In this document: positions 7,630 to 22,393 of the stretch, piece by piece
Layout: each line of letters begins with the position of its first letter
How positions within the stretch are numbered: the first letter of the stretch is position 1
Assembly (NCBI GenBank): GCA_001898625.1
Contig: MKUP01000030.1
Span: forward strand, 1-32,988
Reading direction: 5' to 3'
Length of the DNA: 32,988 nt
Source of the DNA: Burkholderiales bacterium 67-32
GTDB lineage: Bacteria > Pseudomonadota > Gammaproteobacteria > Burkholderiales > Burkholderiaceae_B
The notes under the pieces: model-generated
Databases searched by the model: none
Told to the model about the DNA's origin: nothing
Seen by the model: the letters and a program-made list of their open reading frames with translations, nothing else
Translations under genes and position numbers: made by a program

Positions 7630-8471
7630 TAGGCAACCATTCCGTTCAGTTTTTCATCGAGACCATAGGCGGCATCCTGCCCACGGTAGTTGAGCAAGGA
7701 AGAGAGTTCGGCGGCGTTTTCGCAAACGCTGTCGGCCAGGCGCTCCAGGCGGCCGGCTTCCAGCGGCACGGCGGGCATCGCCACGCCCAGCGCGGCGGCG
7801 ATGGCCCCGCCCTGCTCGCGCACGGGCGCGGCCAGGGTCGAGATGCCCGATTCGAAGAAACCTTCATGCAGCAGGTAGGGCCGCCGGCGGTCCTCCGCCA
7901 GCAGCGCATGCAGTTGCTCCACGGAGCGCGGCGTGAACGCGTTGACAACGGGCAGCGTGCCCTGCGGATACAGCTCGCGCAGTTCGTCCAGGGACATGTC
8001 GGCCATCAGCACCCGGCCCAGCACCGTGGCATGGGCGGGCAGGCGGGTGCCGACGTTCACCGAGCTGGCGAGCGGCGTGTTGGCGGCAGCCTTGGCGACG
8101 TAGACGATGTCGGCGCCGTCGCGCACCACCAGATGACAGGAAAGATTGAACTCGTTGCGCACCCGCTCCAGCAGGGGTGCCCCCAATTGGGTCAGTTCGA
8201 GCGAGGCGAGGTATTCGAAGCCCAGGCGCAGCACGGCCATGCCGAGGGAATAGTCGCGGCCGTTGTCGGCGCGATGGATGAAGCCCATGCGTTCGAGCGT
8301 GGCCAGCAGCCGGAATACCGTGGTGCGGGGCACGCCCAGCCGCCGCGCCAGTTCGGGGGCGTTCATGGCGCCCTGCGCCTGGCCGACCTCGCACAGCACG
8401 CGCAGGCCGCGCTCCAGGCCGGGAACGACATACTTGTCCTGCGAGGTTTCCTGAGGGGGAAGCGGGTTCAC
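7629..8471 (-). CDS. IclR-family transcriptional regulator (first copy)
   Basis: A 280-residue regulator with an N-terminal winged helix-turn-helix (about 14-80; recognition region RLGVPRTTVFRLLATLE) and a C-terminal GAF-like effector domain (about 90-265; LPAHATVLGRVL, APVREQGG). IclR proteins of aromatic catabolism bind the pathway substrate or an intermediate and repress or activate the adjacent operon. It is the promoter-proximal gene of the ten-gene operon, downstream of the conserved element at 8521-8605, so it is probably autoregulated together with its targets. It is closely related to the regulator at 17624-18451. The ATG at 8471 is the upstream-most Met in the frame that keeps the family's usual short N-terminal arm. 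Confidence 0.93.
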   Translation of the reverse strand: MNPLPPQETSQDKYVVPGLERGLRVLCEVGQAQGAMNAPELARRLGVPRTTVFRLLATLERMGFIHRADNGRDYSLGMAVLRLGFEYLASLELTQLGAPLLERVRNEFNLSCHLVVRDGADIVYVAKAAANTPLASSVNVGTRLPAHATVLGRVLMADMSLDELRELYPQGTLPVVNAFTPRSVEQLHALLAEDRRRPYLLHEGFFESGISTLAAPVREQGGAIAAALGVAMPAVPLEAGRLERLADSVCENAAELSSLLNYRGQDAAYGLDEKLNGMVA

Positions 8472-8520: not shown

Positions 8521-8605
8521 CGTTTCAAATATGAACTGACAATCCATACACGGAACAGAACGAAATATAGCCGCTCCGCCCTCCCGTCGACACTAGGGTA
8601 AACCC
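8521..8605 (-). promoter_or_regulatory. Promoter/operator region of the catabolic operon, shared with 22150-22235
   Basis: This intergenic segment, 49 bp upstream of the first IclR gene, aligns with the segment upstream of the ABC importer ATPase gene. Plus-strand order is a 37-bp block (8521-8557, 26 of 37 positions identical by hand count), AAATATAG (8563-8570), 25 bases, then GGGTAAACC. The block holds half-sites TATGAAC and CACGGAAC. Read on the minus strand these are GTTCATA and GTTCCGTG, which resemble IclR operators of the GTTYCGTA type. AT-rich stretches could supply a -10 element but I cannot fix the transcription start. Binding by the IclR proteins is inferred. Confidence 0.7.
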
Positions 8606-8618
8606 GCAAATCTGGCGT

Positions 8619-8936
8619 TCAGCGGCCGTCGGCGTCCAGGCCCAGCACGCGCAGCCGCGCGCGCAGCCGCCGTATTTCGTTGCTCATGTCGAGGATCAGG
8701 GCCGCCGCGTCCAGGCTGGCGTCGAAATCGCGCTGCAGGTCGCGCGCCGCCAGGGCCTGCCGCAGCGCGGCGCTGTCGAAGCACCAGTCGGCCTGACGGC
8801 CGCTGGCCTCGATGATGCCGACCCGGACCAGTTGCAGCACCCAGGCCTCTTCCGCGCCGCAGGCCCGGGCCAACTCCCCGGTGCTGAGCGGCTGTTCCTT
8901 GCCCACCAAGGTGGCGGTGACGGCAACCGTCTTCAT
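8619..8936 (-). CDS. cbpM: Chaperone modulator CbpM
   Basis: A 105-residue protein with a MerR-like N-terminal helical region (STGELARACGAEEAWVLQLVRVG, shown here only by its ends: STGEL at 18 to RVG near 40) and a C-terminal helix with heptad character (NEIRRLRARLRVLGLD). CbpM binds the J domain of CbpA and blocks its DnaK-stimulating activity. The start is 2 bp after the stop of the DnaJ-type gene, the standard cbpA-cbpM arrangement, and length fits. It is the last gene of that unit; the catabolic promoter region follows. Confidence 0.88.
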   Translation of the reverse strand: MKTVAVTATLVGKEQPLSTGELARACGAEEAWVLQLVRVGIIEASGRQADWCFDSAALRQALAARDLQRDFDASLDAAALILDMSNEIRRLRARLRVLGLDADGR

Positions 8937-8938
8937 CG

Positions 8939-9868
8939 TCAGTCTCCCAGGTTCCGGCGCGGGTCGAAGGGCACTTCCTGCGCCAGGTGTCTATAGGCCG
9001 CCTTCGCCTTCTCGGTGTCGGCGGGCGGCCAGGCGATCTCCAGCACCAGGTAGAAATCGCCGGCCGGGTCCCCCGGGATGCCCTTGCCCTTCAGGCGCAG
9101 CTTGCGGCCGTTGCGCGAGTTCGCCGGCACGTTGACCTCGACCGGTCCGTGCGGCGTGGGCGCCCGCACCGTGGCGCCCAGCGCGGCCTCCCAGGGGGCC
9201 ACCGGCAGGTCCATGTACAGGTCGCGCCCCTCGACCCGATAGCGCGGGTGAGGCTTGATCCGGACCTCGAGGTAGAGGTCGCCGTTCTCGCCGCCGCCCA
9301 GGCCCGGCATGCCCTGCCCCGCCAGCCGGATGAATTGCCCTTCCCGGATCCCGGCCGGGATGCGCACGCTCAGCGTGCGCGTTTGCAGCCGGGGCTGGCC
9401 GTTCTCGTCGTGGCCGATGGAGCGCAGCGAGATGTCGCGGGTGGCGCCGTGCAGGGCGTCGTCCAGGTCGATCTCGATGGCGGCGTGGTGGTCCTCGCCC
9501 CGGGCCCGCATCTGCGCGCCGCCCGGACGATGGCGCGCGCCGAACAGCGACGAGAAGAACTCGCTGAACGCCGCGTCGTCGTTGGGGCTGGCCCCGCGGA
9601 ACTCGAACCCGCTGTCCCAGTCGGACGGCGGACGGAAATCGCCGCCGGACGAGACACCGGCCGCCAGATTGTCGTAGGCGGTCCGTTTCTCGGGATCCTT
9701 CAGCACCTGGTAGGCCTCGTTGACGTCGCGCATGCGCTGCTCGGCGTCGGCCTCCTTGCTGACGTCCGGATGGTACTTGCGGGCCAGCTTGCGGTAGGCA
9801 TGCCGGATATCGTCGTCCGACGCCCCCTGCTCGACGCCCAGCGTCGCGTAGTAGTCCTTGAACTCCAT
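8939..9868 (-). CDS. cbpA: DnaJ-type co-chaperone CbpA (curved DNA-binding protein)
   Basis: A 309-residue J-domain protein: J domain at 1-70 with the HPD triad in RKYHPDV, a glycine-rich linker with GGDF-like and FSEFFSSLFG segments, then two C-terminal beta-sandwich substrate-binding domains (about 120-300). The cysteine-rich zinc domain of DnaJ is absent, which identifies the CbpA class. It would stimulate DnaK and may bind curved DNA at the nucleoid. The ATG at 9868 begins MEFKDYYATLGVEQ, where the J domain itself starts; the 12 residues added by an upstream ATG at 9904 have no counterpart in the family. A candidate heat-shock promoter lies at 9932-9960. Confidence 0.92.
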   Translation of the reverse strand: MEFKDYYATLGVEQGASDDDIRHAYRKLARKYHPDVSKEADAEQRMRDVNEAYQVLKDPEKRTAYDNLAAGVSSGGDFRPPSDWDSGFEFRGASPNDDAAFSEFFSSLFGARHRPGGAQMRARGEDHHAAIEIDLDDALHGATRDISLRSIGHDENGQPRLQTRTLSVRIPAGIREGQFIRLAGQGMPGLGGGENGDLYLEVRIKPHPRYRVEGRDLYMDLPVAPWEAALGATVRAPTPHGPVEVNVPANSRNGRKLRLKGKGIPGDPAGDFYLVLEIAWPPADTEKAKAAYRHLAQEVPFDPRRNLGD

Positions 9869-9931
9869 AGCCGCGGTCTCGCAAAGTAAAGTGCCGGCCG
9901 GCACGTCGCCGGGCCGGCCGAGTATTGCTTT

Positions 9932-9960
9932 ATATGTGGGACACGCCGACCGATTTCAAT
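9932..9960 (-). promoter_or_regulatory. Candidate sigma-32 (heat-shock) promoter of cbpA-cbpM
   Basis: On the minus strand ATTGAAA (9960-9954) is followed by a 13-base spacer and CCCACATAT (9940-9932). This is close to the sigma-32 consensus CTTGAAA-N13/14-CCCCATnT in both elements and spacing. It sits 63 bp upstream of the cbpA start, with a TATAAA just downstream that could serve sigma-70. A heat-shock role suits a DnaJ homologue. Identified by eye only. Confidence 0.6.
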
Positions 9961-9998
9961 CGTCCGGGGGCGAAGGAAGGCCTTCGTCCGTTTCCAGT

Positions 9999-10700
9999 CT
10001 AGCAGGGCAGGTCGAACAGTAGAACCTCCGCGTTTTCGCCCTGTTCGACCACGATGCCGGCCTCGTCCCCGACCGCCAGCGCATCGCCGCCGGACAGGCG
10101 CTGGCCGTTCACCACCGCCGTTCCCCGCGCGACGTGCACCCAGGCCTGGCGGCCCTCGGCCAGCGCGTGCTCGGCGCGCTCCCCGGCGTCGAACAGCCCG
10201 GCGTACAACCGGGCGTCCTGGTGGATGCCCACCGACCCCTGGGCGCCGTCCGGCGACGCCACCAGGCGCAGCCGGCCGCGCTTCTCGGCGGCGGGGAAGT
10301 TGCGCTCCTCGTAGCTGGGTTCGACGCCCTTGACGTTCGGCTCGATCCAGATCTGCAGCATGTGGGTGGCGCGGTCCCGCTCGGGGTTGAACTCGGAGTG
10401 CATCACCCCGGTACCCGCGCTCATGCGCTGCACGTCGCCGGGACGGATGACCGAGCCGTTGCCCATGCTGTCCTTGTGCTCGATGGCGCCGTCCAGCACA
10501 TAGGTGATGATTTCCATGTCGCGGTGGCCGTGCATGCCGAAGCCCCGGCCCGCGGCGATGGTGTCGTCGTTGATCACGCGCAGGGGGCCGAAGCCCATGT
10601 GCGCGAGGTCGAAGTAGTCGGCGAACGAAAAGGTATGGGCGCTGCGCAGCCAGCCGTGGTCGGCGCGGCCGCGTTCTTCACTGCGTCGAATGGTTTGCAT
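9999..10700 (-). CDS. Pirin-family protein (YhhW-like bicupin)
   Basis: A 233-residue pirin. The N-terminal cupin carries the metal-binding set H57, H59, H101 and E103 in GMHGHRDME and VMHSEFN; the C-terminal cupin is degenerate. Some members oxidise quercetin, others respond to redox stress; the natural substrate here is unknown. The start at 10700 gives MQTIRRSEERG, the usual family N-terminus; longer in-frame starts reach into the divergent LysR gene and are rejected. It is divergently transcribed from a LysR regulator across 130 bp, a common pairing in which that regulator controls the pirin gene. Confidence 0.92.
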   Translation of the reverse strand: MQTIRRSEERGRADHGWLRSAHTFSFADYFDLAHMGFGPLRVINDDTIAAGRGFGMHGHRDMEIITYVLDGAIEHKDSMGNGSVIRPGDVQRMSAGTGVMHSEFNPERDRATHMLQIWIEPNVKGVEPSYEERNFPAAEKRGRLRLVASPDGAQGSVGIHQDARLYAGLFDAGERAEHALAEGRQAWVHVARGTAVVNGQRLSGGDALAVGDEAGIVVEQGENAEVLLFDLPC

Positions 10701-10803
10701 GAGGATTCTCCCGTGTCGGCCCGCCCGGTGGCAGGGCCGTTGTCGATGGATCCATTGTGGGCTACCGGCTCCCCGGTTTGTGCCGTATCCTTTGAGGACA
10801 TCA

Positions 10804-10818
10804 TTCAAATTCGTTGAA
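10804..10818. promoter_or_regulatory. LysR-type T-N11-A operator candidate
   Basis: TTCAAATTCGTTGAA is an inverted repeat with 5-base arms and contains the T-N11-A pattern of LysR-type boxes. It lies 12 bp before the LysR gene start in the divergent pirin-LysR gap, so it could mediate autorepression and control of the pirin gene. No binding evidence exists. Confidence 0.45.
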
Positions 10819-10830
10819 CGACTTTTCCCC

Positions 10831-11775
10831 ATGCATGCGCTGTCGCCCGAATCGCTGCAGATGATCGACGCCATCGCGCGCCACGGCAGCTTCGCCAAGG
10901 CCGCGCGCGAACTGGGCAAAGTCCCGTCGGCGCTGACCTATTCGGTGCGCCGGATCGAGGACGACCTGGACGCGCTGCTGTTCGACCGCAGCGGCCATCG
11001 CGCCCGCCTCACCGCCGCCGGCGAGGAACTGCTGCGCGAAGGCCGCCCCCTGCTGGAGGCCTACGACGCGCTGGCGCAGCGGGTGCGGCGCATCGCCACA
11101 GGCTGGGAGACGGAACTGCGCATCGCGGTCAACGCGGCCCTGAACTGCACCGCCCTGTTCGACCTGGCCGAGGATTTCGAGGCCCTGGGCACCGGCACCC
11201 GGCTGCGGTTCAGCCACGAGGTGCTGCAGGGCAACTGGGATGCCCTGCTGTCCGGCCGCGCGGACATCGTGATCGGCGCGGACGCCGACGGCGCGCCGGC
11301 CGAGGGCTTTCATTCGCGCGCGCTGGGCAACCTGCCCTTCGTGTTCTGCGTCGCGCCCCACCATCCGCTGGCCACGGCGCCGGAGCCGCTGGCCGCCGCC
11401 GATATCGACCGCCATACCGCCGCCGTCGTGGCCGATACGTCGCGCCGCCTGCCGGCCGGCACCAAGGGCCTCCTGAGCACCCAGCACACGATCACGCTGC
11501 CCAACATGGAACTGAAGGTCCGCGCCCAGGTGCGCGGGCTGGGCTGCGGCTACCTGCCCGAGCCCCTGGCGGCGCCCTACCTGTCCCAGGGCCTGCTGGT
11601 GGCGCGCGAGGTCGAGGGCATCGGCCTGAACGAACGGCTGGTCTACGCCTGGCGCGCCCCCGCCGAGGGACAGGCGCTGCAATGGCTGCTGAAACGGCTG
11701 CAATCGACGCGGCTGCATGCCGCCCTGCTGTCCCGCGCGCACCCGCAGGCGGCCTCGGCCCGGCGGGCCTCGTGA
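10831..11775 (+). CDS. LysR-family transcriptional regulator
   Basis: A 314-residue regulator with an N-terminal winged helix (about 4-62: [20 protein letters not shown], then [14 protein letters not shown]) and a C-terminal periplasmic-binding-like effector domain (about 92-300). The ATG at 10831 puts the helix-turn-helix at the usual distance from the N-terminus; the upstream ATG at 10690 would overlap the pirin gene. It is divergent from pirin and is probably its regulator; the effector is unknown. Its stop codon shares the A of the gluQ ATG (TGATG), so gluQ may be translated from the same message. Confidence 0.9.
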
Positions 11776-12653
11776 TGGACTACGTCGGCCGCTTCGCCCC
11801 CAGCCCCACCGGCCCCCTGCACCAGGGTTCGCTGGTGGCCGCGCTGGCCAGCCACCTGGACGCCCGCGCCCACGGCGGGCGCTGGCTGGTGCGCGTCGAG
11901 GACCTGGACGCGCCCCGGGTCGTGGAAGGCGCGGACCACGTCATCCTCGACCAGTTGCGGGCCCTGGGCCTGCACTGGGACGGCGAGATCCTCCACCAGT
12001 CCTCGCGCCACCAGGCCTACCGCGAAGCCTTCGATACGCTGCGGCGCCAGGGCATGGTCTATGCCTGCGGCTGCACGCGCAAGGAAATCGCCGACTCCAT
12101 CCTGAGCTCGCGCGGCTACCTGCCGGCCGGCGAACTGCCCTATCCGGGCACCTGCCGCGACGGGCTGCACGGCAAGCCGGCGCGCGCCTGGCGGCTGCGC
12201 GTGCCGCCGGGCACCGTACGCATCGACGATCGATGGATGGGGGTGGTCGAGCAGGACGTGGCGGACGAGGTGGGCGACTTCGTGCTTTTCCGCGCGGACG
12301 GGATGTGGGCCTACCAGTTGGCGGTGGTGGTGGACGATGCCGAACAGGGCATCACCGACGTCGTTCGCGGCGAGGACCTGCTCGGCTCCACACCCAGGCA
12401 GAAAGTCCTGCAGACACTGCTGGCGCTGCCGGTTCCCCGGTGGATGCACGTGCCGGTGGTGGTCAATGCCGACGGGCAGAAACTGTCGAAGCAGACCGGC
12501 GCCGCGGCGATCGATACGCAGCGGCCGCTGGCCGCGTTGCGGGCCGCGTGGCGCCATCTGCAATTCGAACCGCTGCCGGCGGCGGACGTCCCGGCCTTCC
12601 TGGCCGAAGCGACGGACCGCTGGGCGCGGCGATGGGAAATAGTCCGGAGATGA
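11775..12653 (+). CDS. gluQ: Glutamyl-Q tRNA(Asp) synthetase
   Basis: A 292-residue paralogue of the glutamyl-tRNA synthetase catalytic core that attaches glutamate to queuosine at position 34 of tRNA(Asp). The class I signature region is [14 protein letters not shown] (7-20), the KMSKS loop is KLSKQ, and zinc ligands appear in ACGCTRKE and YPGTC. No anticodon-binding domain follows, which separates it from GltX. The ATG at 11775 overlaps the LysR stop by one base. It converges on rhlE with a GC-rich hairpin between them. Confidence 0.93.
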
Positions 12654-12657
12654 GGCC

Positions 12658-12676
12658 GGGGCGCGGCGGGCGCCCC
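12658..12676. terminator. GC-rich hairpin between convergent gluQ and rhlE
   Basis: GGGGCGC and GCGCCCC form a 7-bp stem with a GGCGG loop in the 43-bp gap between two convergent genes. There is no T run on either strand, so intrinsic termination would be weak; it may instead block readthrough together with Rho. Confidence 0.4.
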
Positions 12677-12696
12677 GACAACGGCCGGCAGGAAGG

Positions 12697-14115
12697 TCAG
12701 TCCTTCTTGCCGCCGCCCAGCAGCACGGCCAGCGGCCGCTTGGCGGACGTGCGAGGCGGCACGGGAGGCGCCTCGCCATGGACCGGCTCGGTGCCGCTCG
12801 CGGGCACATAGGGACGGAAGAAGAAATCGTCGACGGGCTTCTTGGCCGGCGATTCATACCGCGGGCGCTCGCCGCGCTCGCCACGATCGCCGCGTCCGGC
12901 ATGGCTGCGAACCGGGCGTTCGCGCTCACCGCGCGACGATGCCAGCAGCGACGCCGGCAGGTCCAACTGGCCGCGCGGGATCTCGCGCTTGATCAGCTTC
13001 TCGACGTCGAGCAGGAAGCGCTCTTCCTCGGGCGCGAACAGCGCGATGGCCTCGCCCGTCGCGCCGGCACGGCCGGTGCGCCCGATGCGGTGCACGTAGT
13101 CCTCGGCGTTGTAGGGCAGGTCGTAGTTGATCACGCAGGGCACGCCGGCCACGTCCAGGCCGCGGGCCGCGACGTCGGTCGCCACCAGCACTTCCAGCTC
13201 GCCGGCCTTGAAGGCCTCGAGCGCCTTCATGCGATCGGCCTGGGTCTTGTCGCCGTGGATGGACTCGGCGCGCACGCCGTCGCGCTCGAGCAGCCGCGCC
13301 AGGCGGGCGGTGCCGATCTTCGTGTTGGAGAACACGATGACCTGCTTCAAGCCGCGCGACTTGACCAGGTGAACGACCGCGGCGCGCTTGGCGTCGCCGC
13401 TCAGCTTGTAGGCGATCTGGCTGACGGTGTCGGCCGTGGCGTTGCGCGCCGCGACCTCGATCTCGACCGGCTGCGTCAGATAGGAGCGCGCCAGCTTGCG
13501 GATCTCGTTGCTGAAGGTGGCCGAGAACAACAGCGTCTGGCGCTGCTGGGGCAGCAGGCGGATGATGCGTTCCAGGTCCGGCAGGAAGCCCATGTCGAGC
13601 ATCCGGTCGGCCTCGTCCAGCACCAGCATGCCGACCTGGCCCAGATTGATGGTTTTCTGCTCGACGTGATCGAGCAGGCGTCCCGGCGTCGCGATCAGCA
13701 CTTCGCAGCCGCGCCGCACTTCTTCCTTCTGGGGGCCGATGTCGACCCCGCCGAAGACCACGGCCGCGCGCAGGGGCGTGAACTGGCTATAGCGCTTGAC
13801 GTTGTCGGCCACCTGGTCGGCCAGCTCGCGCGTGGGCGTGAGGATCAGCGCGCGGACGGGATGCCGTGCCGGCGATGCGCTGGTGTTGGCCAAAGGCATG
13901 AGCCGATGGAGGATGGGGAGAGTGAAAGCCGCGGTCTTGCCGGTTCCGGTTTGCGCTGCGCCCATTACGTCTCGGCCGTTGGTGACGACCGGAATCGCTT
14001 GCGCCTGGATAGGCGTCGGAATGGTGTACCCGGTGGCGACGACCGCCTTGAGTATGTCGGGGTGCAGGCCGAAATCGGCAAAAGAACTGGGCCCTGATGC
14101 CGCTGTATCTGTCAT
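12697..14115 (-). CDS. rhlE: DEAD-box ATP-dependent RNA helicase, RhlE type
   Basis: A 472-residue helicase with both RecA-like domains: motif I AQTGTGKT, PTRELA, TPGR, motif II DEAD (VLDEADRML), SAT, and in the second domain ARGLD and HRIGRTGR. The C-terminal tail from about residue 400 is rich in Arg, Gly and Glu and probably disordered, typical of RhlE-type proteins acting on ribosome assembly or mRNA decay. The start at 14115 gives MTDTAASGPSSFADFGL, placing the Q motif normally; an in-frame ATG at 14157 adds 14 residues without family support. A sigma-70-like promoter lies at 14183-14209. Confidence 0.92.
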   Translation of the reverse strand: MTDTAASGPSSFADFGLHPDILKAVVATGYTIPTPIQAQAIPVVTNGRDVMGAAQTGTGKTAAFTLPILHRLMPLANTSASPARHPVRALILTPTRELADQVADNVKRYSQFTPLRAAVVFGGVDIGPQKEEVRRGCEVLIATPGRLLDHVEQKTINLGQVGMLVLDEADRMLDMGFLPDLERIIRLLPQQRQTLLFSATFSNEIRKLARSYLTQPVEIEVAARNATADTVSQIAYKLSGDAKRAAVVHLVKSRGLKQVIVFSNTKIGTARLARLLERDGVRAESIHGDKTQADRMKALEAFKAGELEVLVATDVAARGLDVAGVPCVINYDLPYNAEDYVHRIGRTGRAGATGEAIALFAPEEERFLLDVEKLIKREIPRGQLDLPASLLASSRGERERPVRSHAGRGDRGERGERPRYESPAKKPVDDFFFRPYVPASGTEPVHGEAPPVPPRTSAKRPLAVLLGGGKKD

Positions 14116-14182
14116 GGTGGGGGACCACCAATGCCGCAACACGATGATGCGTATCAATAGTCCAGAAAAATCAAAGACTTAG

Positions 14183-14209
14183 ATTTTACCTCAAAAGCCA
14201 GCCTGTCAA
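14183..14209 (-). promoter_or_regulatory. Sigma-70-type promoter of rhlE
   Basis: On the minus strand a perfect TTGACA (14209-14204) is followed by 15 bases and TAAAAT (14188-14183, five of six matches to TATAAT). The spacer is short, but the elements stand out in GC-rich DNA and point at rhlE, leaving a leader of roughly 60 bases. Confidence 0.6.
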
Positions 14210-14299
14210 CCAGAAGGAAAAACCGGCGGCGAACCGGCCCGCCGCCCCGGCGCACCATGCTGTAATGGCGGCATCGCCACCCTGCTCTCCGCATGCGTC

Positions 14300-15034
14300 A
14301 TGCGCCTGTCCGTCGTCATCATTGCCCGCAACGAGGCCCGCAACCTGGCCGACTGCCTGGAATCGGTCCGCTTCGCCGACGAGATCGTCGTGGTCGATTC
14401 AGGCAGCACCGACGAGACGGTGGACATCGCGCGCCGGCATGGCGCCCGGGTCGAGATCACCCCGGACTGGCCGGGCTTCGGGCCGCAGAAGAACCGCGCG
14501 CTGGCCCTGGCCACCGGCGACTGGGTCCTGTCGCTGGATGCCGACGAACGGGTGACGCCCGAACTGGCCGCCGCGATCGCCGACGCCCTGCGCACCCCGC
14601 GCCACGATGCCTACGACATGCCACGGCTGTCCAGTTTCTGCGGCCGCTTCATCCGGCACAGCGGCTGGTGGCCCGACCGCGTGCTGCGCCTGTTCCGGCG
14701 CGGCACGGCCCGCTTCAGCGACGATCTGGTGCACGAAAAGGTGGTCGCCGACGGCGAGGTGGGACACCTGGCGCCGCACCTGCTGCACTACACTTACCCC
14801 GACCTGGACAGCGCCATCGCCAAGATGAACCGCTATTCCAGCGACAGCGCGCAGGCGCTGCACGCGCGCGGCAGGCGAACGGGCATGGGCGCCGCCATCG
14901 GTCATGGCGCCTGGACCTTCGTGCGGCTGTACGTCTTCAAGCGCGGCTTCCTGGACGGCCGCCACGGGTTCCTGCTCGCGGCCACCGCCGCCGCCGGCAG
15001 CTTCTATCGCTACGCGAAGCTCAGCCTGAAATAG
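14300..15034 (+). CDS. Family 2 glycosyltransferase, lipopolysaccharide-core (WaaE/KdtX-like) type
   Basis: A 244-residue inverting GT-A glycosyltransferase without signal peptide. It begins MRLSVVIIARNEARNLADCL and has the nucleotide-sugar region VVDSGSTDET (about 35-44) and a DxD-type metal motif in LSLDADERV. The later HEKVV segment and a hydrophobic, basic C-terminal helix (about 205-240) resemble the WaaE/LgtF-like glucosyltransferases that extend the inner core of lipopolysaccharide. Sugar donor and acceptor are inferred from the family. It stands alone, 25 bp before dinB, which may share its transcript. Confidence 0.85.
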   Translation: MRLSVVIIARNEARNLADCLESVRFADEIVVVDSGSTDETVDIARRHGARVEITPDWPGFGPQKNRALALATGDWVLSLDADERVTPELAAAIADALRTPRHDAYDMPRLSSFCGRFIRHSGWWPDRVLRLFRRGTARFSDDLVHEKVVADGEVGHLAPHLLHYTYPDLDSAIAKMNRYSSDSAQALHARGRRTGMGAAIGHGAWTFVRLYVFKRGFLDGRHGFLLAATAAAGSFYRYAKLSLK

Positions 15035-15059
15035 GCTCGGCCAACCGGCGAATGCGGCC

Positions 15060-16136
15060 ATGCGCAAGATCATCCACTGCGATTGCGACTGCTTCTACGC
15101 ATCGATAGAAATGCGCGATGATCCCAGCCTGCTCGGCCGGCCGCTGGCCGTGGGCGGGCGGCCCGAGACCCGGGGCGTGGTGGCCACCTGCAACTACGAG
15201 GCGCGCAAGTACGGCATCCATTCGGCCATGTCGTCGGCGCGCGCGGTGCGGCTGTGCCCGGACCTGCTGATCATTCCGCCCAGGATGGAGATGTACCGGG
15301 TGGCCTCGGCGCAGATCATGGACATCTATCGCGACTACACCGAACTGGTCGAACCGCTGTCGCTGGACGAGGCCTACCTGGACGTGACCGGCAGCGACCG
15401 GCTGCAGGGCAGCGCCACGCGGATCGCCAGCGAGATCCGGCAGCGCGTGGCCCAGGCCGTCGGCATCACCGTCTCGGCCGGCGTGGCGCCCAGCAAGTTC
15501 GTGGCCAAGATCGCCAGCGACTGGAACAAGCCCGACGGCCTGTTCGTCGTGCGTCCGCGGGACGTGGACACCTTCGTGGCGGCGCTGCCCGTCTCCAAGC
15601 TGCACGGCGTGGGCAAGGTGACCGGCGCGCGGCTCAAGGCGCTGGGCGTCGAGACCTGCGCCGACCTGCGGGCATGGGAACACGACCGGCTGCGCGACGA
15701 GTTCGGCGCGTTCGGCGAACGCCTGCACGACCTGTGCCGCGGCATCGACAACCGCGAGGTCTCGCCCACCCGAGAACGCAAGTCGGTCAGCGTGGAGCAG
15801 ACCTTCGTCACCGACCTGCACACGCTGGAGGCGTGCCAGGAACTCCTGCGCGAGATGCTGGACCAGCTCGACGCACGCGTGCGCCGCGCCGATGCCCAGC
15901 ACCACATCCAGAAGCTGTTCGTGAAACTGCGCTTCTCGGATTTCAACCGCACCACCGCCGAGGGCGTCGGGGCGGCGCTGGACGAGGAACAGTTCCGCAT
16001 CCTGCTGGCCACGGCCTTCCGCCGCAACCCGCGCGCCGTGCGGCTGATGGGACTGGGCGTGCGCCTGGGCGCCCCGGGCGGACAGCTCGCGCTGTTCGGC
16101 GATCAGCCTACGGTTTCGGAACCCGACACCGTGTAG
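15060..16136 (+). CDS. dinB: DNA polymerase IV (Y-family translesion polymerase)
   Basis: A 358-residue DinB with the palm catalytic acidic residues D8 (HCDCDCFYAS) and D103/E104 (SLDEAYLD), the finger and thumb regions, helix-hairpin-helix near KLHGVGKVTG, and a little-finger domain at about 235-345. It ends QLALFGDQPT, similar to the beta-clamp-binding QL-LF motif, which supports clamp-dependent function. It performs error-prone bypass of damaged bases. The ATG is at 15060. The final 34 bp overlap the convergent copper chaperone gene. I see no obvious LexA box just upstream. Confidence 0.93.
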   Translation: MRKIIHCDCDCFYASIEMRDDPSLLGRPLAVGGRPETRGVVATCNYEARKYGIHSAMSSARAVRLCPDLLIIPPRMEMYRVASAQIMDIYRDYTELVEPLSLDEAYLDVTGSDRLQGSATRIASEIRQRVAQAVGITVSAGVAPSKFVAKIASDWNKPDGLFVVRPRDVDTFVAALPVSKLHGVGKVTGARLKALGVETCADLRAWEHDRLRDEFGAFGERLHDLCRGIDNREVSPTRERKSVSVEQTFVTDLHTLEACQELLREMLDQLDARVRRADAQHHIQKLFVKLRFSDFNRTTAEGVGAALDEEQFRILLATAFRRNPRAVRLMGLGVRLGAPGGQLALFGDQPTVSEPDTV

Positions 16137-16312
16137 CCGGCCTCTTCGATCAGCTTGGCGATCCGCGCTGCGTCGTCGGCCTGGTCGACGCGCACCTTCC
16201 CGGCACCCAGGTCGACCTCGACATGGGCCTGGGGATAGGCGGACTGCACCGCCTGGGTGACGGACTTGACACAGTGTCCGCAGCTCATTCCCTGCACCTG
16301 GAATTCAAACAT
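16103..16312 (-). CDS. copZ: Heavy-metal-associated domain protein, CopZ-like copper chaperone
   Basis: A 69-residue single-domain ferredoxin-like metallochaperone. The metal site is MSCGHC (residues 9-14), and the rest follows the beta-alpha-beta-beta-alpha-beta HMA pattern ending GYTVSGSETVG. It would carry Cu(I) in the cytoplasm to an exporter ATPase; no copA or cueR gene is in this window. The ATG at 16312 has an AAGGAG site. Its 3' end overlaps that of dinB on the other strand by 34 bp. Confidence 0.88.
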   Translation of the reverse strand: MFEFQVQGMSCGHCVKSVTQAVQSAYPQAHVEVDLGAGKVRVDQADDAARIAKLIEEAGYTVSGSETVG

Positions 16313-16368
16313 GGCATGACTCCTTTCTTGATGGTGTAGCCAGTATTCCCCTTCCCACGATGGCAAGG

Positions 16369-17619
16369 TCAAGCGCCGTTGCGCAGTGCCAACCAACGGG
16401 CGGCGCCCTGCCCCGACCAGCGGCCGCTGGCCAGGCAGGCCGTGAGCAGATAGCCGCCGGTGGGTGCCTCCCAATCCAGCATCTCGCCGGCGCAGAAGAC
16501 GCCAGGCAGCACGCGCAACATGCCGTGTTCGTCCATGCCGTCGAATGCCACGCCGCCGGCGCTGCTGATGGCCTCGGCTATAGGCCGCGGCGCGCGCAGC
16601 ATCAAGGGCAGCGACTTCACCCACGCGGCCAGCCGGACAGGATCCTGGAAATCGGCGGCCGGCACGATCTCGCGCAGCAGGCCCGCCTTCGCGCCGTCCA
16701 CCTTGATGCGCGCGCGCAGGTGGTTGGCCATGGATTTGCTGCCCCGCGGCCATGCCAGTTCCTCGGCCACGCGCTCGATGCCGAGCCCGGGCGCCAGGTC
16801 GAGCCGCAGTTCGGCACGGCCGTGACGGACGATGGCCTCGCGCAGGCGGGCCGAAGCGGCATAGATCAGGCTGCCCTCGACACCGTAGCCGGATACGACG
16901 AACTCCCCGCCGCGCCGCCACTCTCCCCGTTCGTCGGACATGGCGAGCGTGACCGCGCGCACCGGCTGTCCCGCGTAACGCTCGCGGAAGTGCGGGCTCC
17001 AGTCGATCTCGAAACCGCAGTTGGCCGGCAGCAGCGGCGCAATGCGTACGCCGCGCCCGGCCAGCCACGGCACCCAGGCCGCGTCCGATCCCAGCCGCGG
17101 CCAGCTCGCGCCCCCCAGGGCCAGCACCACCGCATCGTGGCGATGGGCCGCACGACCGGCCGGCGTATTGAAGGCCAGCGCGCCGTCCGCCTCCCACCCT
17201 AGCCATCGATGCCGCATGTGCAGGCGCACGCCCCGCCCCCGCAGCCGATGCAGCCACGCGCGCAGCAGCGGCGCGGCCTTCATCTCTTTCGGGAAGATCC
17301 GGCCCGACGATCCGACGAAGGTGTCGATGCCCAGGCCATGCACCCAATCGCACACGGCCCGGGCGCCGAACGCCTCGAGCATGGGGGCCAGCGCTCCGGC
17401 GCGATCGCCATAGCGGGCCAGGAAGGCCGCCGCCGGTTCGGAGTGCGTGATGTTCAGGCCGCCTATGCCGGCCAGCAGGAACTTGCGGCCCGCCGACGGC
17501 ATGGCGTCGTAGACATCCACCGCGATGCCGGCCTCGGCCAGGACCTCGGCAGCCATCAGGCCCGCCGGCCCGGCGCCCACCACCGCGGCGCGGCCAGGCG
17601 CGGTCAACGACCCGGCCAT
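16369..17619 (-). CDS. HI0933/TIGR03862-family FAD-dependent oxidoreductase
   Basis: A 416-residue flavoprotein. Its N-terminal dinucleotide motif is VVGAGPAGLMAAE (14-26), followed by GRKFLLAGIGGLN and THSE segments characteristic of the HI0933 (YhiN-like) group, and a C-terminal FAD closure VFCAGEMLDWEAPTGGYLL. The enzymatic role of this group is not established. It starts 4 bp after the second IclR gene stop, so it is co-transcribed at the end of the importer operon. That location could be incidental, since such genes also stand alone elsewhere. Confidence 0.85.
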   Translation of the reverse strand: MAGSLTAPGRAAVVGAGPAGLMAAEVLAEAGIAVDVYDAMPSAGRKFLLAGIGGLNITHSEPAAAFLARYGDRAGALAPMLEAFGARAVCDWVHGLGIDTFVGSSGRIFPKEMKAAPLLRAWLHRLRGRGVRLHMRHRWLGWEADGALAFNTPAGRAAHRHDAVVLALGGASWPRLGSDAAWVPWLAGRGVRIAPLLPANCGFEIDWSPHFRERYAGQPVRAVTLAMSDERGEWRRGGEFVVSGYGVEGSLIYAASARLREAIVRHGRAELRLDLAPGLGIERVAEELAWPRGSKSMANHLRARIKVDGAKAGLLREIVPAADFQDPVRLAAWVKSLPLMLRAPRPIAEAISSAGGVAFDGMDEHGMLRVLPGVFCAGEMLDWEAPTGGYLLTACLASGRWSGQGAARWLALRNGA

Positions 17620-17623
17620 ACGT

Positions 17624-18451
17624 TCACAGGTTGACGACCCGGCCCATGGCCAGTTTCTCGGGCGAATAATTCAACAGGCGCGACAACTCCATGGCGGTGC
17701 TGCGCACCCGGCCGACCAGGTCGTCGATACGCTCGGGCTCGAAGCGCGACGAGGGTATCGTGGCGCCCAGCGCCGCCACGATGCGGCCGGTGGCGTCGCG
17801 CACCGGCGCGGCGATGGTCGAGACCCGCGCCTCGAAGAAGGCTTCCTGCAGGACATAGCCGCGTTCGCGGTCCTTCTGCACCAGCTCGTACAAATCCATC
17901 ACGGTCGTGGGCGTGCTGGATGAGTAGCTTGCCAGGTGTTCCTCGGGGAACAGCTCGCGCAGTTCGTCCAGCGTGAGGTCCTCCAGCAGGACGCGGCCCA
18001 GCACCGTGGCGTGCGCGGGCAGCCGCGTGCCAACGTGGACCGAGCTGGTGAAGGGCGTGGGCGCCGACGACTTGGCGACGTAGACGATGGAACGGCCATC
18101 GCGCACGACCAGGTTGCACGAGAACCCGATCTCGCCCCGCAGGCGCTCCAGCAGGGGCGCGCCCAGCTCGGTCAGTTCGAGCGAGGCCAGGTATTCGAAA
18201 CCCAGCCGCAGCACGGCCAGTCCGAGCCGGTAGTCGTGCCCGCCCTCGGCCCGCTGGACGAACCCCATGGACTCCAGGGTCATCAGCAGCCGGAAAACGG
18301 TGGAACGCGGCAAGCTGAGGCGGCGCGCCAGTTCGGGCGCCGACAGCTTGCGGTCGACGTGGCTGAATTGTCCCAGCAACAGCAGGCCGCGCTCCAGCGC
18401 CGGGACGAGATACTTGTCCTGCGCGACCTCCGAGATGTTCCCTTTGCTCAT
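17624..18451 (-). CDS. IclR-family transcriptional regulator (second copy)
   Basis: A 275-residue IclR regulator built like the one at 7629-8471: helix-turn-helix at about 20-75 (RLSLPRSTVFRLLMTLE) and effector domain at about 85-260. Long segments agree between the two, including LGFEYLASLELT and RLPAHATVLGRVL, so they are recent paralogues or have the same ancestry. It is the fifth gene of the importer operon, separated by 81 bp from the SDR gene. Both regulators may bind the element present upstream of both operons, with different ligands or opposite effects; that is inference. Confidence 0.92.
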   Translation of the reverse strand: MSKGNISEVAQDKYLVPALERGLLLLGQFSHVDRKLSAPELARRLSLPRSTVFRLLMTLESMGFVQRAEGGHDYRLGLAVLRLGFEYLASLELTELGAPLLERLRGEIGFSCNLVVRDGRSIVYVAKSSAPTPFTSSVHVGTRLPAHATVLGRVLLEDLTLDELRELFPEEHLASYSSSTPTTVMDLYELVQKDRERGYVLQEAFFEARVSTIAAPVRDATGRIVAALGATIPSSRFEPERIDDLVGRVRSTAMELSRLLNYSPEKLAMGRVVNL

Positions 18452-18532
18452 GGTGTGACCGACTGTCTGATGGCTTGCGGACGGAATGATACCGGTCCCG
18501 ACAGGCGGTGCCGGCCACGCTGCCCGCTTTTT

Positions 18533-19315
18533 TCAATTCATCACGAATCCGCCGTTGACCGGAAGAAGCTGGCCGGTGACGAAGCGCGCGAGGTCCGACA
18601 GCGCGAACAACACCGATCCGCTCACGTCCTCGGGCACCTGTTCGCGGTGGATCGCACGCTGGTCATGGTAGAGCTGATGCCGCGCCTCGGGCACGTATTC
18701 CGTCGCCTCGACCAGGGTCAGCCCCGGCGCAATGGCATTGACGGTGATGTTGTCGGCGCCGAACTCGCGCGCCAGCGACCGCGTCATCGCCGTGACCGCG
18801 CCCTTGCTGGCGACGTAGGCCATCAGGTTGGGCGCGCCCCACAGCGCCGTGTCCGACGCCAGGTTGACGATGGCGCCCCGGCCCGAGGCCTTCAGCGCCG
18901 CGTGGCAGGCGACGGACATCAGCCAGGTGCCGCGCACGTTGACCTGCATGACCTTGTCCCATACCTCGACCTCGAGCTGGTGCGCGGTGCGCCCGCCCGA
19001 GTTGGTGATGGCGGCGTTGTTCACCAGTCCGTCCAGCCCGCCCAGCAGTTCGACGGCGCGCGCCGCGCACCGCTCGACCGATGCCTTGTCGCCCAGGTCG
19101 ACTTCGATGCCGTGCACCGGAAAACCCCGCGCCTGCAGCGACTCGACCGCCTCTTTCAGCGTGTCGGCCAGGATGTCGGCCATGGCCACCTGCGCGCCGG
19201 CCTGGCACAGCGCCACCGCGAACTCGTAGCCCAGCCCGCGCGCCGCGCCTGTCACCAGGATGCGGCGGCCCCGCAGGAGATTACCGATAGTGCTTGAATC
19301 CAACATTGCTCCCAT
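18533..19315 (-). CDS. Short-chain dehydrogenase/reductase with classical active site
   Basis: A 260-residue SDR: TGAARGLG cofactor motif (about 19-26), NNAA, active-site Ser in NLASD and the Tyr-Lys pair in AYVASKGAV, ending in LPVNGGFVM. All catalytic residues are present, unlike the SDR at 6832-7629. It is downstream of the ABC importer and may oxidise the imported compound or a dihydrodiol or alcohol made by the Rieske oxygenase. Two starts are possible, ATG 19315 and ATG 19306; neither has a well-spaced ribosome site, so I keep the longer one. The permease gene ends 9 bp upstream. Confidence 0.9.
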   Translation of the reverse strand: MGAMLDSSTIGNLLRGRRILVTGAARGLGYEFAVALCQAGAQVAMADILADTLKEAVESLQARGFPVHGIEVDLGDKASVERCAARAVELLGGLDGLVNNAAITNSGGRTAHQLEVEVWDKVMQVNVRGTWLMSVACHAALKASGRGAIVNLASDTALWGAPNLMAYVASKGAVTAMTRSLAREFGADNITVNAIAPGLTLVEATEYVPEARHQLYHDQRAIHREQVPEDVSGSVLFALSDLARFVTGQLLPVNGGFVMN

Positions 19316-19324
19316 TACCCGTGC

Positions 19325-20173
19325 TCAGACCGTGGTGGTGGCTGCGCGCGGCAGATAGTGAAGTACGCGCTTCTCGGCCCAGACGACGCCCGCGTAGGCG
19401 ACGATGCCGATCAGCGTAAGCACCGCGATCGTGACGAACACGGCCGAGGTGTTGCCCTGCCCCTCGCCGTCGACCAGCAGGAAGCCCAGGCCCAGGTTGC
19501 CCCCGACCAGTTCACCCACGGTCACGCCGATGACGGCCAGCGTCGAGGCGATGCGCAGGCCCGAGAACAGCGCCGGCAGCGCCGACGGGAACTCGACCAG
19601 GCGGAAGATCTGCCAGCGGCTGGCGTTGAGCGTGCGGACCAGGTTGACCATGTCCGGGTCCACGGTGCGCACCGCCGACAGCACGTTGATCATGACCGGG
19701 AAGAACACGATCAGGATGGCGACCAGGATCTTGGGATAGATGGTGTAGCCCAGCCACATCACGAACAGCGGCGCGAAAGCCACCTTGGGCGCGATCTGCA
19801 GCGCCAGGATGTAGGGCGACAGGATGGACTCGGTGGTGGGCGACAGGCCCAGCACCACGCCCACCACCAGGCCCAGCAAGGCCCCCAGGATGAAGCCGAC
19901 GATCACCTCGAACGCGGTAATGCCGCTGTGCATGAGCAGCTCGCTGGTCTGCCACATGTGGCCGAACTCCTGGACCACGCGGCTGAAGCGGGGCAGGATG
20001 AATTCCGGCATCTTGAGCAGGCCGGGACCCCATTCCCAGGCGGCCAGGAACACCAGCAGGACCAGCAGGCTGCCGGCGGCCGTGGCGACCTTGCCCGAGA
20101 AGAACGGGCGGGCCGCCGGCCTGGCGGCGCCCGCCGCGGCGGACGCGTTTTCGTTGGATACGGATACAGACAT
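19325..20173 (-). CDS. ABC transporter permease (SsuC/TauC/NitT family)
   Basis: A 282-residue inner-membrane permease with about six transmembrane segments, the first at about 33-52, after a 30-residue Ala-rich cytoplasmic arm. The EAA-type coupling loop that contacts the ATPase is visible around LNASRWQIFRLVEFPSALP. The family imports sulfonates, taurine, nitrate, thiamine precursors and some aromatic acids. The ATG shares a base with the receptor stop (TAATG), showing translational coupling. Substrate is unknown; the shared promoter suggests it brings in the compound degraded by region 1. Confidence 0.92.
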   Translation of the reverse strand: MSVSVSNENASAAAGAARPAARPFFSGKVATAAGSLLVLLVFLAAWEWGPGLLKMPEFILPRFSRVVQEFGHMWQTSELLMHSGITAFEVIVGFILGALLGLVVGVVLGLSPTTESILSPYILALQIAPKVAFAPLFVMWLGYTIYPKILVAILIVFFPVMINVLSAVRTVDPDMVNLVRTLNASRWQIFRLVEFPSALPALFSGLRIASTLAVIGVTVGELVGGNLGLGFLLVDGEGQGNTSAVFVTIAVLTLIGIVAYAGVVWAEKRVLHYLPRAATTTV

Positions 20174-21168
20174 TACCGCTCAACCCCGACGAACTGGTTC
20201 GTATAAAGATCGGTCAAGGGCGCGGCCTTGGACACGATGCCTTCCGACACGTAGAACTTCTGCACCTCCGCCAGGCGGGCGGTATCCATCTGGCCCAGCA
20301 CCTTCTGGTCGGCGTACACGTACTTGTTGTACAGGCGCAGGATGCGCTCGAGCTTCTCTTCCTTGCCCTTGAAGGCCGGCGCGGCCTGGGCATAGGTGGC
20401 GGCGGCGCTCTTGGGATCCTTCATCACGTCCTGCATGCCGCGCAGGGTCGCGCGCACCAGGCGCTTGATCAGGTCCGGATTCTTCTTGATCGTCTCGTCC
20501 GAGGCGATGATGGCCTGCGCCATGCTGTTGAACGGCTTGTCGACCTTCAGGTACTCGACGTTGCCGTTGGTGGCTTCGTCGGCGTCCACCAGCCAGTCGG
20601 GCGTGGCGGCCATGCCCTCGGACTTGCCGGCGGCGAACAACTGCCAGACGCCGGCCGGGCCGGCGGCCTGGATGGACACGTCGTTCTTGCTCAGGTTGTA
20701 CTTCTTGAGCGTGCCCAGCAGCGCGTAGTAGGTCGTGTCGCTGTACGAGATCACGGTCAGGGTCTTGCCCTTGAGGTCGGGCACCGACTTGATCGGACCA
20801 TCCTTCTTGACCGCCAGCGCCGACAGCGAGCCGGCGCCCAGCACGGCGACGGCCTTCACCGGCACGCCGTTGGCGCGGACGATGATGGGCGTGTCGCCGA
20901 TGGCGCCGCCGATCACGGCATTGCCGGCGCCGATCTGCTTGGCGACGTCGACGCCGCCCTTGCCCAGCACGAAGTTGACCTTGATGTTCTCATCGGCGTA
21001 GTAGCCGCGCTGCTGCGCGATCATCCACGGGGCGAACGCCGGCAGCGTGGGCGGCGCGGGCAGCAGATAGTTCACTTCCTCGGGCGCGGCGTGGACGGCG
21101 AAAGGCGAGGCGACAGCCACGGCGACGGCGGCCAGTTTGAAGCTGAACGAGACCAGAGCTTTTTTCAT
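20173..21168 (-). CDS. ABC transporter substrate-binding protein (NMT1/SsuA-like)
   Basis: A 331-residue periplasmic receptor. Its signal peptide has a KKALVSFSFK start, a hydrophobic core and a likely cut after Ala27 (AVHA-APEE). The mature part follows the NMT1/THI5-like two-lobe fold with early LPAPPTLPAF and FVLGKGGVDVAKQIGAGNAVIGG segments (the second runs from about 66 to 88). It captures the ligand for the permease and ATPase encoded on either side. Start supported by an AGGAAG ribosome site. Ligand not predictable from sequence by eye. Confidence 0.92.
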   Translation of the reverse strand: MKKALVSFSFKLAAVAVAVASPFAVHAAPEEVNYLLPAPPTLPAFAPWMIAQQRGYYADENIKVNFVLGKGGVDVAKQIGAGNAVIGGAIGDTPIIVRANGVPVKAVAVLGAGSLSALAVKKDGPIKSVPDLKGKTLTVISYSDTTYYALLGTLKKYNLSKNDVSIQAAGPAGVWQLFAAGKSEGMAATPDWLVDADEATNGNVEYLKVDKPFNSMAQAIIASDETIKKNPDLIKRLVRATLRGMQDVMKDPKSAAATYAQAAPAFKGKEEKLERILRLYNKYVYADQKVLGQMDTARLAEVQKFYVSEGIVSKAAPLTDLYTNQFVGVER

Positions 21169-21232
21169 AGGGCTTCCTGTAAAGAATGGGCGCCCACGGG
21201 CGCGGCGTGCGTGATCGGGAGAAATGGACGGC

Positions 21233-22021
21233 TCAGTGCAGTTCGGCAGTTTCCTTGCCGACCTTCAGCAATTCCATCAGGCGCCCCTGCAACGGGCCGA
21301 TTTCAGGCAGCTTGCGCCGCTCCAGCGGGTTGTCCCGCATGGGCAGGTCGACGACGATTTCCTCGATGATGGTGCCGGGACGCTCGCTCATGACCAGCAG
21401 GCGGTCGGACAGCGCGATGGCTTCCACCAAGTCGTGGGTGATGAACAGCGCCGTCTTGCGCTTCTCGTACACCATCTTGGCCAGGTCCTGCTGCAGCACC
21501 ATCTTGGTCTGCGCATCCAGCGCCGAAAACGGCTCGTCCAGCAGCAGCACCTGCGGGTCCACGGCCAGCGTGCGGGCCAGCGCGGCACGCTGGCGCATGC
21601 CGCCCGACAACTGATAGGGATAGTGTTCCTCGAAGCCTTTCAGGTGGCACTTGGCCAACAGCTCGTCGGCGATCACCTTGCGCTCGCGAGCCGGGGCACC
21701 GTCGATCTCCAGGCCCAGCTCGACGTTGGCGCGGATGGTGCGCCAGGGCATCAGCAAGTCCTTCTGCAGCATGAACGCCACCTTGCGCACGGGCTTGGTG
21801 ACGCGCTCGCCGCCCACGTAGACCTCGCCCTCGCTGGGCAGGTAAAGGCCGGCGCCCATGTTCAGGAGCGTGCTCTTGCCGCAACCCGACGGGCCGATGA
21901 TGGACACCACCTCGCCGCTGCGTATGCTGAGGTTGACGTCGGTGACCGCCGTGCGGGGTTGCCCCGTCTGGCGGTCCATGAAGCGCTTGCCAACCTTGCG
22001 GAACTCGATTTCATTCGTCAT
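21233..22021 (-). CDS. ABC transporter ATP-binding protein (SsuB/TauB family)
   Basis: A 262-residue ATPase with Walker A GPSGCGKS (43-50), signature LSGGMRQR (138-145), Walker B QVLLLDEP (157-164), D-loop SALD and switch His196 (ITHDLVEA). It powers the importer and is the first gene of the operon, 128 bp downstream of the conserved promoter element. A 64-bp gap with a small GC-rich hairpin separates it from the receptor gene, which may help set the higher receptor level usually needed. Confidence 0.93.
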   Translation of the reverse strand: MTNEIEFRKVGKRFMDRQTGQPRTAVTDVNLSIRSGEVVSIIGPSGCGKSTLLNMGAGLYLPSEGEVYVGGERVTKPVRKVAFMLQKDLLMPWRTIRANVELGLEIDGAPARERKVIADELLAKCHLKGFEEHYPYQLSGGMRQRAALARTLAVDPQVLLLDEPFSALDAQTKMVLQQDLAKMVYEKRKTALFITHDLVEAIALSDRLLVMSERPGTIIEEIVVDLPMRDNPLERRKLPEIGPLQGRLMELLKVGKETAELH

Positions 22022-22393
22022 GTTGCGGGCCTGTAGGAACCGAAGCGTCGATTCGGCGGCGAGCGGGAGCGGAACCGCCCCATCCCCGCGGTTGCGGGGG
22101 GCCGGACACTGCGATAGTGTTATTCGATCGCTGGGCCGGCATCGTTCGTCGTCTTAAATACGAAACCTCATCTCATATACGGAACAATGGCAAAAATATA
22201 GCGCCTCGTTTTTGGGGGCGCGACTGGGGTAAACCACTACCGAAGGCCAAGCAAGCACCGGGCCAGGGGGAAGACCGGCCCGTGAGCGACGAACAACGCG
22301 CCGTGGCGGTGCAACATCGCACCATCCACGGGCGGGAAACGGGGGAACCCGCACCCGGGCGGTGCGGAGGACAACGCGGCGCGGCCGCGCCGG
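22022..22393. other. Non-coding interval between folE and the importer operon
   Basis: This 372-bp stretch has no credible gene on either strand. The part next to the ATPase gene is its leader, 22150-22235 is the promoter element shared with the catabolic operon, and 22236-22393 is GC-rich sequence after the folE stop in which I see no clear terminator. Confidence 0.7.
22150..22235 (-). promoter_or_regulatory. Promoter/operator region of the importer operon, shared with 8521-8605
   Basis: Same architecture as the catabolic promoter: a 37-bp block (22150-22186), AAATATAG (22194-22201), 25 bases, GGGTAAACC (22227-22235). The block contains a direct repeat ATACGAAAC / ATACGGAAC whose copies start 19 bp apart, about two helical turns, so both could be bound on one DNA face. 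The internal distance from block to AAATATAG differs from the other copy by only 2 bp. IclR control is inferred from the half-site shape and the two IclR genes. Confidence 0.7.

Follow-up and report, generated by a model that had tools for sequence, protein, structure and literature searches.

The DNA stretch analysed here, contig MKUP01000030.1 of Burkholderiales bacterium 67-32 (32,988 nt; hereafter called the window), is the whole of contig C30 in a 6.66-Mb genome of the genus Pigmentiphaga (Alcaligenaceae), whose members are soil bacteria. It carries two operons on the - strand, which are preceded by two similar segments, segment A (8521-8605) and segment B (22150-22235). Each segment is a predicted promoter firing leftwards: A into the gene of the IclR-family regulator IclR-A, the first of a series of catabolic genes (operon A), and B into the gene of an ABC ATPase, the first of a set of importer genes that is followed by a short-chain dehydrogenase gene (SDR_B) and, in last place, by the gene of a second regulator, IclR-B (operon B). 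The features are listed in Table 1. A first-pass annotation, made from the letters of the window, had proposed that one promoter architecture drives the two operons; this holds for A and B, and there is in addition a third, diverged copy outside the window, on contig C12, which the exact pattern of that annotation does not match.

In a local alignment, segments A and B share 55 identities over 84 aligned columns with one 2-nt gap, and the score of 46 compares with a mean of 15.9 (standard deviation 2.84) and a maximum of 35 among dinucleotide-shuffled pairs (n=2,000). When segment A was compared with 6,547 tiles from both strands of the window, those within 90 nt of A being excluded, all eight of its top partners overlapped segment B. 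The 37-nt blocks at 8521-8557 and 22150-22186 are identical at 26 of 37 letters; beyond them stands AAATATAG (8563-8570 and 22194-22201, respectively), then exactly 25 nt, and then GGGTAAACC (8596-8604 and 22227-22235), with the inter-block spacing differing by 2 nt between A and B. The alignment, the 26/37 block, the exact spacer and the spacing difference reported by the first-pass annotation were all reproduced. The likeness is beyond chance, and A and B are two related promoters. Chance, or a shared AT-rich composition of the two segments, is an explanation with nothing found in its favour, and it can be regarded as already refuted by the shuffle test and by the genus conservation, the fixed spacing and the third copy described below. 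The coding sequences on either side had been called unrelated, which is true of the genes directly downstream and not of the operons as wholes, since both hold an SDR gene and paralogous IclR genes (57-59% identical); as had been stated, there is an IclR gene in each operon, the first gene of A and the last of B.

The blocks and their spacing stood as first described and their order did not, because the genes lie on the - strand and the true order is upstream element, -10 box, operator. Read on that strand, A and B both have GGTTTACCC, exactly 26 nt, a TATATT -10 box and, after a gap of 7 nt in A and 9 nt in B, an operator of 35 nt made up of two tandem IclR-like sites over the start of transcription, which is predicted at about 8557 for A and 22188 for B. 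Searches of the whole own genome with the promoter pattern (up to 2 mismatches) and with the 35-nt operator (up to 3 mismatches) gave 2 matches each, and the reversed-pattern controls gave 0 in both cases; the patterns were built on A and B, and diverged copies resembling C could stay hidden from them.

Table 1. Predicted features of promoters and operons A and B, with coordinates in the window
Feature	Position	Strand	Basis or remark
Operator A GTTCCGTGTATGGATTGTCAGTTCATATTTGAAAC, predicted 35-nt tandem IclR-like site	8522..8556	-	about +1 to +35 of predicted transcript; conserved in genus
-10 box A (TATATT)	8564..8569	-	sequence, spacing table
Upstream element A GGGTTTACCCTAGT	8592..8605	-	GGGTTTACCC part centred about -43.5 from predicted start
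Operator B GTTCCGTATATGAGATGAGGTTTCGTATTTAAGAC, predicted tandem IclR-like site	22151..22185	-	operator pattern and model
-10 box B (TATATT)	22195..22200	-	sequence, spacing table
Upstream element B GGTTTACCCCAGT	22223..22235	-	pattern search, spacing table
IclR-A, first gene of operon A	7629..8471	-	Pfam PF01614 103 bits, PF09339 50.5 bits
SDR_A, short-chain dehydrogenase	6832..7629	-	family search
TPP-dependent enzyme, acetolactate-synthase-like	5160..6905	-	family search; true start may be internal
Aldehyde dehydrogenase (ALDH)	3678..5156	-	family search
Two-domain VOC protein, extradiol-dioxygenase-like	2704..3663	-	family search
107-aa protein, function not assigned	2372..2695	-	open reading frame (ORF) match
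Small HTH_62 (PF20552) relative, matched part, adjoining Rieske gene	2154..2342	-	homology match
Rieske oxygenase, VanA-like C-terminal domain	1115..2134	-	family search
Small ORF resembling RidA-type protein	702..1118	-	name by eye; ORF match only
Ferredoxin-type reductase, cut by contig end	1..678	-	domains searched on intact G166 copy
ABC ATPase, first gene of operon B	21233..22021	-	family search
NMT1/THI5-like substrate-binding protein	20173..21168	-	family search
ABC permease	19325..20173	-	family search
SDR_B, short-chain dehydrogenase	18533..19315	-	family search
IclR-B, last gene of operon B	17624..18451	-	NCBIfam IclR-family models, over its length

A position-weight operator model trained on the A and B sites and on a displaced variant of A (A', see below) detected the third predicted site on contig C12 (L107 11547-11581), at 14-16 bits. 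Promoter C is built as TGTTTACCC, 25 nt, TATATT, 7 nt and a tandem operator, and it precedes genes for a cupin, an alpha/beta hydrolase, a third regulator (IclR-C) and an AspDH-like protein, the names of these genes being transferred from Caballeronia relatives. It was seen in 9 of the 10 Pigmentiphaga loci read, in 8 by its motif letters and in one (P. humi, G179) by its score, which was 35.6 bits in a later model that includes C sites; in the tenth locus (L186, G151) the contig stops short of the expected position. The 11-mer TTTACCCYAGT of the upstream element occurs at 4 places in the own genome, 3 of which are promoters A, B and C, and the fourth (contig C25) has neither a -10 box nor an operator. 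The idea that the element is more widely spread in this genome was considered and rejected, as four other AGGGTAAACC places were without a correctly spaced -10 box or operator by eye. The same regulatory site stands before all three operons and is all but missing from the rest of the own genome. With two sites, and a related one before the operon on C12, the motif is not widespread, and the proposed regulon passed the check on rarity.

To see how far the promoters are conserved, 11 Pigmentiphaga genomes, the own one included, were compared. Nine of them contain the promoter pattern (site A in 7, site B in 9), and three of the genomes yielded three further two-mismatch matches of different sequence. 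In G179 the operator of site B has 0 mismatches and the element is one letter shorter. In two genomes (G096, P. litoralis, and G116) operon A is displaced and its regulator, IclR-A', has diverged, yet the promoter layout is the same (A'). Altogether, site A or A' is present in 10 of 11 genomes, with a decayed operator in G179, and site B likewise in 10 of 11, so that the proposed regulon survived the check on orthologous promoters. The remaining genome, G135, had neither promoter nor operator, and neither relatives of IclR-A and IclR-B (E <=1e-80) nor the TPP gene (E <=1e-150) at the cut-offs used. IclR-A' (L103 and L105) shares only 61% identity with IclR-A, as against 78-85% for the SDR, TPP and ALDH proteins encoded with it; judged from these identities, IclR-A' evolved faster or was replaced, and the promoter layout was kept nonetheless.

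The P. litoralis operon B is of special use, as the genes for the ABC ATPase, the binding protein and the permease are gone from this location (the search covered the operon B site of that genome) and promoter B is retained directly before SDR_B, with 2 mismatches in the operator, a spacer of 26 nt and a gap of 8 nt. That the promoter persists without the importer makes it seem part of the regulon rather than of the importer. Between SDR_B and IclR-B in the same locus (L104, 7900-12700) lie TctC-like and sulfatase-like ORFs, named by eye.

Beyond the genus, a looser promoter pattern matched 10 of 250 genomes of the family, namely 9 of the genus and G093, whose match has a different gap and was taken as chance. 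The exact operator pattern, run against 84,980 species genomes in a set that may omit the own genome or its near kin, gave 16 stretches, 13 of them in Pigmentiphaga-type records (two from 'Alcaligenaceae bacterium SAGV5', G199) and one each in Variovorax, an uncultured proteobacterium and an Allomuricauda metagenome-assembled genome. The stretch in Variovorax sp. J22R187 (L150 5554-5588, - strand) has the exact tandem operator pattern in the start region of an ORF for a TctC-type binding protein (by eye).

The most telling comparison came from other genera of Burkholderiales. A search for the TPP enzyme through 399 genomes of the order found 13, besides the own one, that passed 1e-150, of which 11 loci were fetched; with 3 plasmid records opened out of 1,081 that had a match, 14 other-genus loci were obtained and 8-26 kb of each was read. 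In 13 of the 14, all but L174, the TPP gene and others of operon A stand together with SDR_B from operon B and with a cupin, hydrolase or AspDH gene from operon C; within the stretches read, importer genes accompany the cluster in two of the 14 (L175 and L178). The members of A, B and C thus appear to belong to one pathway. Cupriavidus sp. EM10 (L180), Burkholderia multivorans (L181) and Caballeronia sp. NK8 (L182) illustrate the point: they have in one cluster what Pigmentiphaga has in three operons, with related genes for the Rieske oxygenase, SDR_B, alpha/beta hydrolase, IclR, SDR_A, TPP enzyme, AspDH, ALDH, VOC protein and cupin. The composite promoter is present in the Cupriavidus locus, whereas the other two have just weaker operator-like sites of at most about 17 bits, and in none of the three were relatives of the importer genes found at E 1e-15 in the stretches read. 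That relatives keep the A, B and C genes in one cluster is the best support for the split regulon proposed in the first-pass annotation, which is backed further by the conservation in the genus and by the rarity of the site in the own genome.

When an operator model trained on Pigmentiphaga sites alone was run over the 14 loci (220,160 bases), 21 places exceeded 12 bits (0.15 expected from Markov-1 sequence) and 14 exceeded 20 bits (0 expected). For 11 of 22 operator places (L190 included), an element that passes the 99% background level lies 34-38 nt upstream, and for three more it lies at 43 nt; this search covered both strands, which doubles the chance level. All 11 places with both element and operator fall in four of the 14 loci (L168, L169, L171 and L180).

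A small relative of HTH_62 (a recombinase-like HTH family, PF20552) adjoins the Rieske gene in the window and in 13 of the 14 other-genus loci (L168-L171, L173-L178 and L180-L182; the query was taken from L182). It was considered as the missing activator and rejected, because this constant neighbour of the Rieske gene looks like what may be an oxygenase partner and not a promoter regulator.

To examine the layout of the promoters, we compared 21 of them, hand-chosen from the Pigmentiphaga and other-genus hits with weaker hits left out. The spacer between element and -10 box is 25-27 nt in 20 of the 21, and the gap between -10 box and operator is 6-10 nt. Two of the 20 in range, B_G179 and g607, have shortened or weak elements; the exception, C_G179 with a spacer of 38, is an error of the automatic picker, since the taataaccctagt element was present there in another scan. 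The rigid phase suggests that the element works with RNA polymerase, a possible role that the first-pass annotation had not brought up, while the loose gap behind the -10 box fits a blocking operator. A consensus scan for a sigma-70 promoter found none that passes at A and B, and because these lack a passable -35 box the element there probably binds an activator. At promoter C the scan gave a weak -35 box, GTGACG, at 17 nt from TATATT (9 of 12 consensus letters), and this box overlaps the right end of the element. The element may accordingly be an activator site or may in part be a substandard -35 box that is extended upstream. That it is wholly a sigma-70 feature, a weak AGT/GTGAC-like -35 box extended upstream with no regulator site, would agree with the rigid 25-27 nt spacing and with the box in promoter C; we hold this to be improbable in view of the negative scan at A and B and of the 11-mer, which is nearly confined to the regulon (3 of its 4 places in the own genome), whereas a general feature should recur.

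As for what might bind the element, the GntR gene that follows operon A in G166 seems a rather unlikely candidate, as GGTWWACC occurs at promoter A alone in that 20-kb stretch. A search of four other genomes for GGTTWACCCYAGTC, allowing 1 mismatch at most, gave 10 matches (3 in the reversed control), two of them within the clusters. Two of the eight matches outside clusters, L202 and L204 on contig C2 of G572, have the element and a -10-like box 25 nt away without a tandem operator; L202 precedes a GntR-like ORF and L204 a gentisate-dioxygenase-like ORF (both by eye), and these places could be chance matches. In a text search of the literature for the letters of the element, the matches listed were all unrelated. 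We put forward, as a tentative and by no means favoured proposal, that an undescribed catabolic activator of Burkholderiales binds GGTTWACCCYAGT and works with IclR repressors, the sites of both having been kept in a fixed register while the pathway broke into three operons, each of which kept an IclR paralogue.

The operators were compared with published IclR sites, using portions of the main text of Suvorova and Gelfand (2021, PMC8222616). In these portions, the centres of tandem sites are given as 18-22 nt apart and the Group 1 consensus as GKTYCRYW3-4RYGRAMC. The site starts in A, B and C are 19-20 nt apart by eye, with centres about 19 nt apart, within the tandem spacing given there, and the half-site GTTYCRT fits the Group 1 consensus, with a site length of 15-16 nt as against 17-18 nt and imperfect right arms (by eye). 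The regulons described there resemble the present one in their IclR regulators, aromatic-type catabolism and tandem sites; they differ in that the sites here are 1-2 nt shorter, an extra upstream element stands at a fixed distance, and three paralogues would serve one dispersed pathway. The portions covered do not mention this regulon. Lying at about +1 to +35 and downstream of the -10 box from which the start was predicted, the operators would be in a repressor position. The IclR proteins might instead be activators, with the upstream element part of their own binding site, as their relatives PcaU and PobR activate and the element accompanies the operators in Pigmentiphaga and in four of the 14 other-genus loci. 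This appears quite unlikely given the operators' place behind the -10 box, the poor resemblance of the element to the operator half-sites, and the two promoter-like places in G572 with an element and no tandem operator.

Both regulators belong to the IclR family: IclR-A has the HTH_IclR and IclR_C domains, and IclR-B, whose assignment comes from the NCBIfam scan only, matches IclR-family models. The top NCBIfam match of both is the PcaR/PcaU/PobR subfamily model TIGR02431, at 168.1 bits for IclR-A and 175.9 bits for IclR-B, well under the curated cut-off of 284.75 bits for assignment to that subfamily. In a tree, IclR-B and IclR-C group with the cluster regulators of other genera and IclR-A falls outside, the fork having moderate support (84/97). 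The putative recognition helices of IclR-A, IclR-B and IclR-C are nearly identical (alignment, by eye), which makes site sharing plausible; the sites could be common to all three IclR paralogues and not the preserve of a single one. It may be argued that each paralogue governs its own operon with its own inducer, the promoters being alike by inheritance from duplicated regulators and promoters. There is indeed one IclR gene per operon, IclR-A and IclR-B are just 57-59% identical, and operator C has diverged from the other two. Against these stand the near-identical helices, the single cluster in relatives, and the place of promoter B, which precedes the importer and not IclR-B and so did not arrive as a promoter-regulator unit; we regard such separate regulons as rather unlikely.

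Taken together, it is likely, as far as comparative sequence data can tell, that a single catabolic pathway, now spread across three operons, is controlled by three copies of a composite promoter (A, B and C), with IclR-family repressors on tandem operators. Several observations weigh against this. Operator C, at 14-16 bits, is clearly diverged from the intact A, A' and B training sites (46-58 bits), the decayed operator of site A in G179 scores 34 bits, and the sites are 1-2 nt under the consensus length of PMC8222616, several being poor palindromes by eye. The reversed control for TTTACCCYAGT gave 2 matches to 4 real ones, and the full composite promoter was not found in 10 of the 14 other-genus loci. 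With its weak -35 box, promoter C may need no activator, which slightly lowers the odds of one; and the position of IclR-A outside the IclR-B/IclR-C branch means that the paralogues may have separate inducers.

The types of enzymes in the operons suggest a ring-shaped substrate. The closest solved relatives of the enzymes did not settle the substrate, and among the papers listed in literature searches none dealt with this gene cluster. A second TPP enzyme is encoded elsewhere in the own genome (G000:C33:91997-93652); it is 53% identical to that of the window, and the match contains one in-frame TGA.

The preferred reading, three composite promoters on one dispersed pathway, would work as follows. 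In each promoter the -10 box is normal, whereas the -35 box is poor or absent. An activator probably binds the rigidly spaced GGTTTACCCYAGT element, whose core lies near -43.5, and touches RNA polymerase; a tetramer of the operon-encoded IclR-family regulators probably sits on the operator and blocks transcription, and a compound of the pathway would release this block. As the same composite switch is found on all three operons, they are probably still controlled together, and we infer that they may respond to a shared inducer. The system would then illustrate in detail how a catabolic cluster can be dispersed with its promoter logic kept. It would place an uncharacterised importer in one pathway with a set of enzymes and three IclR regulators, which makes the search for substrate and inducer tractable, and it points to an unassigned promoter element common to several genera.

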